A stretch of 33,915 bases of DNA from Chloroflexota bacterium (lineage in GTDB: Bacteria; Chloroflexota; Dormibacteria; Dormibacterales; Dormibacteraceae): assembly GCA_005889495.1 (NCBI GenBank), contig VBHA01000166.1, positions 1 through 33,915 of the forward strand. The letters are read 5' to 3'. Position numbers and translations under genes: made by a program. The notes beneath the pieces were generated by a model. It had not been told where the DNA came from. It searched no databases and saw nothing but the letters and a program-made list of their open reading frames with translations. How positions within the stretch are numbered: the first letter of the stretch is position 1; every line of letters begins with the position of its first letter. This document shows, in pieces, positions 26,271 through 29,618 of the stretch.

Positions 26271-26374
26271 TTATCGCCATTGCGCCAGGCCCAAGATGTC
26301 GTGGCCATAGCCCCTCGAGAGCCGTCTCCGAGCACCTGGCTCGATAATCGAGGACTCACTCATGCCGCCAACTC

Positions 26375-26400
26375 GTAACCAGCTTCGGAAACCCCTCGTT
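26375..26400 (+). promoter_or_regulatory. possible ECF-type promoter ahead of the sigma factor gene
   Basis: GTAACC (26375-26380), 16 bp, then CGTT (26397-26400) is close to the GGAAC / CGTT pattern used by many ECF sigma factors, and lies about 25 nt upstream of the GTG at 26426. It would allow autoregulation. One -35 base departs from the common pattern and such short motifs arise by chance, so this is a weak call. Confidence 0.22.
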
Positions 26401-26425: not shown

Positions 26426-26983
26426 GTGAGCGACCCGTCTCGCGACGATGAGCGAGAGCTCGTCGAACACGCCAAGCGGGATCCCCGTCAATTCGGGACG
26501 CTCTACGACCGGCACTTTCAGCAGATCTACAGGTTCGTGTATTCAAGAGTGAGGGAGCAAACCGCGGCAGAGGACGTCACTTCGGAAGTCTTCATGAAGG
26601 CTCTGAAGGCCATGCCCCGTTACCAGGACACGGGGCGGCCCTTTGCTGCCTGGCTTTACCAGATCGCGGTCAACGCCATCGCCGACCGCTACCGCTCGCT
26701 GCGCACGGCCCAGCCTCTGGACGACTTCCACGACCTCTCGGTCGCAGGCCCTGCCCTCGAGGACCTGGCGGCGCATCGCGACGAGGTGCGGCGGGTATGG
26801 GCTCTGGTCGAGGCGCTGCCGCACCAGCAGCGCACGGCCCTGGTCCTCAAATTCCAGGAAGACATGAAGATCGAGGACATCGCCGTCGCCATGGCGAAGT
26901 CTCCCGGGGCGGTCAAGCTGCTCATCCATCGCGGAGTCACGAAGCTCCGCGAAGCCGCGGACACCCTGAGGCCCGTGGAATGA
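26426..26983 (+). CDS. RNA polymerase sigma factor, ECF / sigma-70 family
   Basis: 185 residues. Region 2 spans about 22-95 (FGTLYDRHFQQIYRFVYSRV, then AEDVTSEVFMKALK and PFAAWLYQIAVNAIADRYR) and recognises the -10 element and melts DNA. Region 4 spans about 120-175 (LPHQQRTALVLKF, then EDIAVAMAKSPGAVKLLIHRG) with the helix-turn-helix for the -35. There is no region 1.1 or 3. The GTG at 26426 is the track start. Its stop overlaps the next gene as ATGA, the usual arrangement for a sigma factor and its anti-sigma partner. Confidence 0.93.
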   Translation: MSDPSRDDERELVEHAKRDPRQFGTLYDRHFQQIYRFVYSRVREQTAAEDVTSEVFMKALKAMPRYQDTGRPFAAWLYQIAVNAIADRYRSLRTAQPLDDFHDLSVAGPALEDLAAHRDEVRRVWALVEALPHQQRTALVLKFQEDMKIEDIAVAMAKSPGAVKLLIHRGVTKLREAADTLRPVE

Positions 26984-29154
26984 ACTCGTACCACGACCCC
27001 GAGCTGGATGACGTCCTCCAGGACGAAGAAGTCAGGCGCATCGCCTCGGTGCTGAGCAGCGTCCGCATGCCGGAGCCTCCGCTCGACGAGGCCTTTCGCA
27101 CCGGCCTGCGCCGGCAGCTGATGAACGAGGCCTGGGCGATGACGGAGGGCCGGACATCGTGGTGGCGGCGGGCGTTCGCACCGCCGGGGCTGGCGTGGGC
27201 CGGCGCCGCGGCCGGCCTGCTGCTGATCACGTCCGTGGTGGTCTTCTATGCGCTCCAGCGCCCGGGCGGCTTCTCGACCACGATCGTCGCGACGAGCCCG
27301 CTCGACGGCAACCGGAGCGTGGCCCTCGAGCAGCCGATCCTGGTCGCGTTCAACCAGCCGATGGACCATCCGTCCACCGAGCATGCGGTCCAGATCACGC
27401 CGGCCACCAATGTCACCTTCGGGTGGCGGGCAAACACGCTCTCGGTGCAGCCGACCGGCGGCACGCTGGCGCCGAACACGCAGTACCAGGTGACCATCGG
27501 CCCGGGGGCGAAGACGGCTTCAGGCAAACCGCTCTCGACCCCGCAGACGATCACCTTCGTGACGAAGACCCCGACGACGCCTACGGCGACGCCCACGCCT
27601 CGGCCCACGCCCGCGAGCGCCCTGGGCGAGAAGCAGGTGGCCGGCCTCGGCGGCGCGACCAGACTGTCCGCGCAATGGTCGTCGGACTCCTCGTCGGTCT
27701 ACTACATCGACGGTCACGGGGCGCTGAACGTCGTTCCCGCCAGGGGCGGCGCGGTCACCACCATCGCCCCCGACGGAGCGTCCTCGCCCGCGCTCTCGCC
27801 AACCGGCGACCGCCTGGCGTACATCCGCGCGGGCAAGGTCGAGGTGCTGACCTTCGCGTCGGGCAAGACCGAGGAGCTTTCGCTCAGGCCGGCGCCGACG
27901 CTGGTTGGATGGGCCCAGGACAGGATCATCTGGGCAGCCGTCGACGGGTTCTATACGCAGGCGGACGACGGGTCCGGCCACCAGGTCGCTGCACTGCCGG
28001 CGACGGGATCCATCACCGTCCTGTCGATCGCACCTGACGGCGGTCATGCGATCTACCGGCAGGGCCAGAACCTTTTCATCCTGGACTTTGCCAGCGGCAA
28101 GAGCGCCCAGCTCGGCCCCCCAGGCGCCGCGTTCGAGACCTGGTCGCCAGGCGGATCGCAGCTGATCTACTCGACCGTCGACAAGGTCGTGGTCTCCGAC
28201 ACCCAGGGCGTCACGCAATCGACGCTGCCCGCCGGCGATGCGGCCTGGTCGAGCCAGGACGCGATCCTGATCGGGGGAGACACCGACATCTTCCAGACCA
28301 GGCCCGACGGCACGAACCTTGGCCGGATCGCCAGCGGCACCTTCCACTCCCCGCTCTGGGCGCCCAACGGCTCGGCCTTCGCGTTCGTGCGGGGTGGAGC
28401 GCTGTGGACCGCCACCGCTCCGGCGCTGCCTCCGGAGCCGACTTCGCTGGACGAGGCCTCTGCGGTCATAGACAACTTCATGAAAGCCCGCCTGGCCGGG
28501 CAATCGGACCAGGCCGGGGCGTACCTCGACGCCAACGGCAAGGCTGCCTATGCGAGCGGCGGCCCGAGGCTGGTGATCACCGGTGACCCGAGCTTCACCC
28601 GCTACTACGTGCTGACCGCGGAGATCACCGGTTCGCAGCCCGACACCGCGAGGTTCGTCGTCCGGCTGGTGCTATCGCACGGAAAGCTCGACGTGAGCGA
28701 CCAGGAGGAGATCCTCACCCTGGTCCGAGATGTGACCAGCAAGCAGTTCATGATCGACCAGGCGGCGGCCGGCGCGCATCGCGACCTCGGCAAGGGCGCG
28801 GAGGTGGTGAGCATCGACGTGCAGGCCGACACGGTCAGGGTGACGTTCGACAGCGACCTCAACCCCGCGACTGTCACCGACGGCGTGACGGTCCTCGACG
28901 CCAAGGGCAAGAGGCTCGAGGCCACAGCGTCTTACGCCAACCGCGTCGTGACCGTGAGCGGCCTCAACCTCAAGCAGGGCGACTCGTACAGGCTGGCGGT
29001 GCTGACCTCGCTGCTCGACGTATCGGGTCAGAACGTGGCCGCCGAGTACGACCTCGACTTTGTGGGTCCCACGATCAAGAAGCACCCCAACCACAAAGAA
29101 GACGTGACCGCGTCGCCTTCGCCGTCTCCCTCTCCCAGTCCGACTCCCGCCTAG
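26980..29154 (+). CDS. membrane anti-sigma-like protein with Ig-like, beta-propeller and NTF2-like extracytoplasmic domains
   Basis: 724 residues from an ATG overlapping the sigma stop (ATGA). Residues 1-65 are charged, cytoplasmic and the likely sigma-binding part; 70-92 is one TM helix (AGLLLITSVVVFYAL). Outside follow a bacterial Ig-like domain of the SbsA/Big_5 kind (about 100-195, TSPLDGNRSVALEQPI...FNQPMD), a Thr/Pro linker (197-212), a TolB/WD40-like beta-propeller (about 225-475, repeated SxDGxxLxY-type blades such as SPTGDRLAYI and WSPGGSQLIY), an NTF2-like region (about 487-595) and a second Ig-like domain (606-695) ending in a Ser/Pro tail. No HxxxCxxC zinc motif is present. The anti-sigma role is inferred from position and topology; the large external part suggests sensing of envelope or ligand state. 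Confidence 0.82.
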   Translation: MNSYHDPELDDVLQDEEVRRIASVLSSVRMPEPPLDEAFRTGLRRQLMNEAWAMTEGRTSWWRRAFAPPGLAWAGAAAGLLLITSVVVFYALQRPGGFSTTIVATSPLDGNRSVALEQPILVAFNQPMDHPSTEHAVQITPATNVTFGWRANTLSVQPTGGTLAPNTQYQVTIGPGAKTASGKPLSTPQTITFVTKTPTTPTATPTPRPTPASALGEKQVAGLGGATRLSAQWSSDSSSVYYIDGHGALNVVPARGGAVTTIAPDGASSPALSPTGDRLAYIRAGKVEVLTFASGKTEELSLRPAPTLVGWAQDRIIWAAVDGFYTQADDGSGHQVAALPATGSITVLSIAPDGGHAIYRQGQNLFILDFASGKSAQLGPPGAAFETWSPGGSQLIYSTVDKVVVSDTQGVTQSTLPAGDAAWSSQDAILIGGDTDIFQTRPDGTNLGRIASGTFHSPLWAPNGSAFAFVRGGALWTATAPALPPEPTSLDEASAVIDNFMKARLAGQSDQAGAYLDANGKAAYASGGPRLVITGDPSFTRYYVLTAEITGSQPDTARFVVRLVLSHGKLDVSDQEEILTLVRDVTSKQFMIDQAAAGAHRDLGKGAEVVSIDVQADTVRVTFDSDLNPATVTDGVTVLDAKGKRLEATASYANRVVTVSGLNLKQGDSYRLAVLTSLLDVSGQNVAAEYDLDFVGPTIKKHPNHKEDVTASPSPSPSPSPTPA

Positions 29155-29618
29155 ACGAGCTTGAGCGCGCGGGCGGCTCGGCAAAGCGCCGTGACCGAAC
29201 CCGAGTGGACGATCTGACCCTCGAGGGCGGCGTTGAGCGCCTCCGTGAACGGGAGTCGCAGCACCTCCATGTCCTGCTCGTAGGTCTCCGGCGCCCGCGC
29301 CGACTCGGTGAGCTGCTCGGCCAGGAACAGGTGCGCGAGCCCGGTGAGGATCGCGGCGCCGTGGACCACCCCCAGCGATGTGTAGCGGGCGGCGACCAGG
29401 CCGGTTTCCTCGGCGAGCTCGCGCCGAGCGCACTCGAGCGGGTCCTCGCCGTGGTCGGAGGTCCCGGCGGGCACCTCCCACGAAGAGACCTTCCACGCGT
29501 GACGCCACTGCCGCACCAGCATCGTGTCGCCGTCGTCGAAGTACGGCACGACAAACGCCGAGTCGGGATTGGTGATCACCGTGTACAGCGCCTCTGATCC
29601 GTCCGGAAAGCGGATCAC
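29151..29618 (-). CDS. NUDIX hydrolase, ADP-ribose pyrophosphatase-like
   Basis: 155 residues from a GTG at 29618. The Nudix box is complete: GTSDHGEDPLECARRELAEETGL, matching Gx5Ex7REUxEExGU (core: RRELAEETGL). The preceding WEVPAGT is typical of ADP-ribose pyrophosphatases. Family-like residues continue upstream in frame (GRSGLFELRDDV) to the accC stop, but with no ATG, GTG or TTG. The true start may therefore be non-canonical, or an upstream start may have been lost. Its stop shares the CTAG with the anti-sigma stop on the other strand. It is the last gene of the purD-purE-pycB-accC run. Confidence 0.88.
   Translation of the reverse strand: MIRFPDGSEALYTVITNPDSAFVVPYFDDGDTMLVRQWRHAWKVSSWEVPAGTSDHGEDPLECARRELAEETGLVAARYTSLGVVHGAAILTGLAHLFLAEQLTESARAPETYEQDMEVLRLPFTEALNAALEGQIVHSGSVTALCRAARALKLV

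Follow-up and report, generated by a model that had tools for sequence, protein, structure and literature searches.

The locus described here raises the question of what an ECF sigma factor coupled to an unusually elaborate external sensor might be watching, and which genes it would control in response. It lies at 26426-29154 of the window, i.e. the whole 33,915-nucleotide stretch analysed, and belongs to the genome of a soil-dwelling member of Dormibacteria, an as yet uncultured class of the Chloroflexota; this genome is assembled to 2.73 Mb in 201 contigs at 87% completeness. Dormibacteria are known mainly from metagenomes and very little is known of their regulation. The explanation we consider probable is that this is a canonical ECF sigma/membrane anti-sigma pair, which senses the envelope and drives cell-wall synthesis.

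The sigma gene (26426-26983, plus strand) begins with GTG and encodes 185 amino acids, with Pfam matches to Sigma70_r2 (E 2.8e-18, residues 26-93) and Sigma70_r4_2 (E 2.8e-12, residues 123-174); the presence of regions 2 and 4 alone in so short a protein identifies it as an ECF (group 4) sigma factor. Its best match in the PDB is the sigma factor of 6dxo (E 2e-21), an entry which we take to be the sigma-BldN/RsbN complex, and of all NCBIfam models the BldN-family model TIGR02952 scores highest, at 125.5 bits. This is below the cut-off of 206.45 bits for BldN-family membership, a shortfall (125 against 206 bits) that makes it plausible on sequence grounds that the pair represents a distinct ECF group. 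The same model has 25 matches in the window genome, i.e. many ECF-like genes for 2.7 Mb. The presumed anti-sigma factor (26980-29154, plus strand; 724 amino acids) starts at an ATG overlapping the sigma stop codon (ATGA). Both the coordinates and the reading frames given in the initial annotation were right. At its other end, the stop codon overlaps that of a convergent NUDIX-hydrolase-like ORF (29151-29618, minus strand) at 29151-29154.

The part of the large protein presumed to bind the sigma factor is the cytoplasmic head (residues 1-65; 26980-27174, plus strand), followed by a single transmembrane helix (residues 70-94; 27187-27261, plus strand), which is apparent from hydropathy in all members and is placed at residues 72-92 by the structural model. 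Hydropathy of the window protein finds one hydrophobic helix, at about residues 69-94, with about 630 residues beyond it, confirming the extent of the external part first proposed; together with the Pfam sigma regions and the ATGA overlap, this upholds the coupling of an ECF sigma factor to a large external sensor. The head is conserved class-wide, as the motif DPELDDxFxDPEL...PPLDPxFRxxLRRQLMxEA recurs across the Dormibacteria, and L43, R44 and L47 are invariant among 23 diverse members; AlphaFold2 predicts three helices here, at pLDDT below 50. The window protein contains no cysteine at all and therefore no zinc motif, as had been noted for its short cytoplasmic part. The Hx3Cx2C signature of class I (ASDI/ZAS) anti-sigma factors is thus missing from the window protein, and none of the 23 heads matches zf-HC2, RskA_N or RseA_N in Pfam. 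Because zinc is dispensable in the ASDI, with approximately 44% of class I anti-sigmas being zinc-free (PMC7406223), the head may still be a divergent ASDI. A profile of the 23 heads gave no confident chain match in the PDB (best E 0.2), and homology to RsbN or the ASDI was detected neither in this search nor by Pfam on the same heads.

On the combined evidence of sequence families and structure prediction, the layout of the large protein is head, transmembrane helix, Ig, propeller, alpha+beta and Ig, with all of its features on the plus strand. The first Ig-like domain (residues 101-195; 27280-27564) is a Pfam Big_5 domain, as the initial annotation had suggested in more general terms; this family matches the window protein in two stretches (whole-protein E 2.6e-21) and is present in all 16 diverse members searched. 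A Pro/Thr-rich linker of low pLDDT (residues 196-215; 27565-27624) leads to a TolB/WD40-like beta-propeller (residues 216-480; 27625-28419), for which the number of strands indicates about six blades. The propeller is weak by Pfam in the window protein (DPPIV_N 1.4e-4, PD40 0.006), with PD40 found in 7 of the 16 diverse members at best at 1.6e-6, and it is structure prediction that bears it out: repeated four-strand blades are modelled, at pLDDT of about 80-90 for residues 230-370 and lower for 402-456, and the Foldseek matches are beta-propellers, including TolB 2ivz (E 9.5e-8) and the bacterial WD40 protein 5yzv (1.3e-8). The AlphaFold2 model was built on six sequences and has a mean pLDDT of 61.8 and a pTM of 0.38, the regions outside the propeller core being poorly placed; the two following domains were read from a separate model of residues 472-697. 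In this, residues 488-602 (28441-28785) form an alpha+beta domain of a helix and long strands at low to moderate confidence, for which neither a family nor a fold match was obtained and no NTF2 appeared among the structural matches, so the NTF2-like label originally given to it was dropped as unconfirmed. The second Ig-like domain (Big_5/CopC/SbsC-like; residues 605-697, 28792-29070) is modelled confidently, at pLDDT mostly 85-93, and matches CopC 5icu and the S-layer protein SbsC 2ra1, in agreement with the earlier reading; a Ser/Pro-rich C-terminal tail of low pLDDT (29071-29151) completes the protein. Elsewhere in the window genome (L002, G000:C83:4042-4446), a lipoprotein-like protein of 560 aa, in which Big_5-like and propeller-like regions are present, resembles the outer part of the sensor and has no anti-sigma head.

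The search with the large protein gave matches in 101 of 110 genomes of the class, some of them merely Ig matches to other proteins, and 52 distinct loci with a sigma gene, chosen by their proteins rather than by their promoter and covering all four Dormibacteria families, were examined. At every one of the 52, the gene for the large protein comes immediately after the sigma gene, mostly with an overlap of 4, 1 or 8 bp; at one of them (L062, in G010) a profile search placed a full-length anti-sigma match some 20 nt beyond the stop codon of the sigma gene. Its length is about 680-800 amino acids, unless cut by a contig end. The sigma factor is 83-94% identical to that of the window in close relatives and about 44-50% in other families, and the sensor is less conserved, the propeller being among its least conserved parts, with about 20% identity to the window between families. 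The large multi-domain ectodomain that had been called unusual is the standard form across the whole of Dormibacteria, and a single-TM TolB-like anti-sigma factor of 645 aa, Tt-TolB, has been demonstrated experimentally (PMC3397946). As for the same architecture beside other ECF genes, for which a search had been proposed, it is found at the 52 Dormibacteria loci. When 400 Chloroflexota genomes were searched with a profile, all matches outside the class were partial, to isolated Ig or propeller regions. Two of 20 such regions inspected adjoin an ECF gene, and both of these have zinc heads.

Upstream of the sigma gene lies a putative autoregulatory ECF promoter, GTAACC-N16-CGTT (-35/-10; 26375-26400, plus strand), with 29 nt from the start of the -10 to the start codon. 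The word GTAAC-N17-CGTT is invariant in 52 of 52 loci, at 26-37 nt before the sigma start, and its nine columns carry 2.0 bits each, against a mean of 0.38 bits for the 16 other spacer columns, i.e. the spacer drifts. Such a conserved ECF-type promoter ahead of the sigma operon appears to be a textbook autoregulated ECF promoter, as predicted from its sequence. Some 30 nt ahead of the ECF promoter, the sequence CTCGATAATCGAG contains a GATAAT (26343-26348) that is also seen in many relatives of family f1; it may be a housekeeping -10 element serving basal or divergent transcription.

The motif was then sought genome-wide. It has 17 sites in the window genome, compared to 2 for the reversed control, and, summed by family, exceeds the control in f1 (547 versus 202), f3 (116 versus 34) and f4 (261 versus 101); in f2, where some genomes have very high control counts, it does not (209 versus 258). 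The genes behind the sites were clustered in seven genomes, where sites stand 11-71 nt before cell-wall genes. The motif precedes the sigma operon and glmS (TIGR01135, above cut-off) in all seven genomes, an LCP glycopolymer transferase in six, either a class A PBP or a monofunctional transglycosylase also in six, and a 407-aa lipoprotein and an NQR2/RnfD-like membrane protein in five each. As an independent check, 30 additional genomes drawn from the four families were examined: the motif precedes glmS in its strict form in 21 of them and in a slightly relaxed form in another 7 (28/30). At the control density, we estimate the chance of a site in so short a stretch at about one per ten thousand genes. 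The relatives of the PBP and LCP genes in these more distant genomes, some of these relatives perhaps being paralogues, have a site in only 2 of 30 each, so a full class-wide wall regulon was rejected: outside the relatives of the window, the firm regulon consists of the operon, glmS and a few others, and LCP and PBP targets are claimed only for these relatives and genome G068. Five sites in the window genome with no convincing gene close behind (L121, L124, L129, L130 and L131) may be due to chance.

Two further features of the motif sites were observed. A near-palindromic GTAACG...CGTTAC (L127/L128; C157:31071-31098 in the window genome) can be read as the ECF promoter in duplicate, the two copies being divergent and overlapping. 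It recurs at L178/L180, L183/L185, L217/L218 and L231/L233 and is thus retained by five of the seven genomes, family f4 included; it lies between the gene for the NQR2/RnfD-like membrane protein and that for a lipoprotein, the latter being clear in G000, G083 and G051. The motif-preceded secreted proteins or lipoproteins at L116, L120, L122, L123 and L127 (minus strand) have no match to a Pfam or NCBIfam family, and the distance from the first base of the -10 to the start of their genes is 13-29 nt, in some cases short enough for leaderless transcripts.

These findings suggest the following model. In ECF systems, a co-transcribed membrane anti-sigma factor holds the sigma factor, and release is usually by regulated intramembrane proteolysis (PMC8999054). 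Here, the short zinc-free head would hold the sigma factor at the membrane, while the Ig-propeller-(alpha+beta)-Ig ectodomain would monitor the cell wall or a wall-derived ligand; a signal would free the sigma factor, probably via regulated proteolysis. The freed sigma factor is predicted to recognise GTAAC-N17-CGTT and so to transcribe its own operon and the genes behind this motif, above all glmS; in close relatives it would also drive the LCP glycopolymer transferase, class A PBP, monofunctional transglycosylase and lipoproteins. GlmS is the entry to amino-sugar and peptidoglycan precursors. Of the distinct envelope- or ligand-sensing ECF group first suggested, the envelope link thus gains support from the class-wide operon, the invariant self-promoter and the wall genes bearing the motif, and a distinct group is plausible, with TIGR02952 below its cut-off.

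Whether the large protein is an anti-sigma factor at all can be questioned, as its head matches no known anti-sigma domain and its ectodomain resembles TolB and S-layer Ig modules; it could instead be a co-transcribed envelope protein, such as a TolB-like scaffold, with a real sigma factor and motif and a sigma factor controlled otherwise. This we judge very unlikely, given the tight and mostly overlapping coupling to the sigma gene in every locus examined, the conservation of the head with its invariant L43, R44 and L47, the placing of ECF, zf-HC2 and Big_5 proteins in the same position by other Chloroflexota, and the precedent of Tt-TolB (PMC3397946). If it is a sensor, it might read an external polymer or solute (a polysaccharide or protein) rather than the state of the envelope, the wall genes being secondary. 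RsgI-type anti-sigmas sense plant polysaccharides, propeller and Ig modules often bind ligands, and the propeller is the part that varies most between families; against this, no catabolic genes figure among the predicted targets, of which glmS is the best conserved and the remainder encode lipoproteins and enzymes of wall synthesis, which makes an external ligand unlikely.

The extent of the regulon is a separate matter, since GTAAC-N17-CGTT might be shared by several ECFs, in which case the predicted targets would belong to more than one sigma factor. Overlapping ECF regulons are known elsewhere, as for sigma M, W and X of Bacillus subtilis, and the window genome has 25 ECF-like matches. Most targets of Streptomyces coelicolor sigma E are likewise only partly sigma-E-dependent (PMC6767563). 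Yet the remaining 24 ECF-like matches of the window genome all lack a site in front of them; the operon described here is the only ECF operon behind one of the 17 sites, and it is so preceded at all 52 loci, so that a shared motif seems rather doubtful. We regard with similar reserve an extension of our preferred reading, according to which the pair would be a class-wide controller of cell-wall supply whose ectodomain binds a peptidoglycan or glycan intermediate, whose sigma factor directly sets the glmS step together with glycan polymerisation and attachment, and whose head is of a new class. If true, this would be sigma-level feedback on the first amino-sugar step and a new class of anti-sigma head; to our knowledge, no such feedback loop on glmS has been described elsewhere.

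Irrespective of that extension, the operon, the domain layout, the conservation across the class, the invariant self-promoter and the motif-bearing targets could all be demonstrated at the level of sequence. Through a class-invariant promoter word, what began as a curiosity of sequence becomes a regulon that can be tested, and watching the cell wall becomes the likely job of the sensor. GTAAC-N17-CGTT also provides a simple motif with which envelope genes of Dormibacteria can be mapped, and the large protein is a clear candidate for an anti-sigma head of a new kind joined to a multi-domain receptor. In the literature searched, which covered few subscription papers, neither the class-wide operon nor its promoter or glmS link was found.

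Several known systems share part of this design. Two loci of other Chloroflexota (L102:2181-4384 and L109:879-3561) also have an ECF gene followed by an anti-sigma gene with Big_5 outside the membrane, but with a classical zf-HC2 zinc head, frames of 539-660 aa, no propeller match and, in L109, LGFP repeats. Sigma-BldN/RsbN of Streptomyces (6dxo), with a class III anti-sigma, offers the closest solved sigma factor, nearly the same promoter and a membrane-anchored anti-sigma factor. RsbN is not known to contain zinc, and the genes for which BldN is known are developmental (bldM) rather than glmS or those of wall synthesis; the head of the window protein, in which three short helices are predicted at very low confidence, has no detectable similarity to a PDB chain. 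The sigma-BldN site, CGTAAC-N16-CGTTGA, resembles the Dormibacteria cGTAAC-N17-CGTT and is one base shorter (PMC2375139). The functional theme is shared by sigma E of S. coelicolor, whose regulon includes PBPs, LCP proteins and a transglycosylase, typical envelope-stress targets, and is described in a text that makes no mention of glmS (PMC6767563); sigma E, however, has another promoter and is classed among ECFs that have no anti-sigma factor and are regulated transcriptionally (PMC8999054). Similar in layout is Tt-RpoE1/Tt-TolB of Thermoanaerobacter tengcongensis, where an ECF gene is followed by that of a 645-aa single-TM anti-sigma factor, shown experimentally, which binds its ECF via the N-terminus and has a head of 39 residues and a TolB-like part of 584 residues outside (PMC3397946). 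The window protein likewise adjoins its ECF and has one TM helix, a short head and a TolB-like propeller, the likeness being one of layout and position, and no Ig domains have been described for Tt-TolB; the Tt-RpoE1 promoter, tGTTAC-N16-CGTC, is autoregulated and of similar form with other letters (PMC3397946). Since a propeller-bearing anti-sigma thus has experimental precedent in Tt-TolB, the sensor is not wholly new in kind: its parts are of known kinds, and it is their combination that is new.
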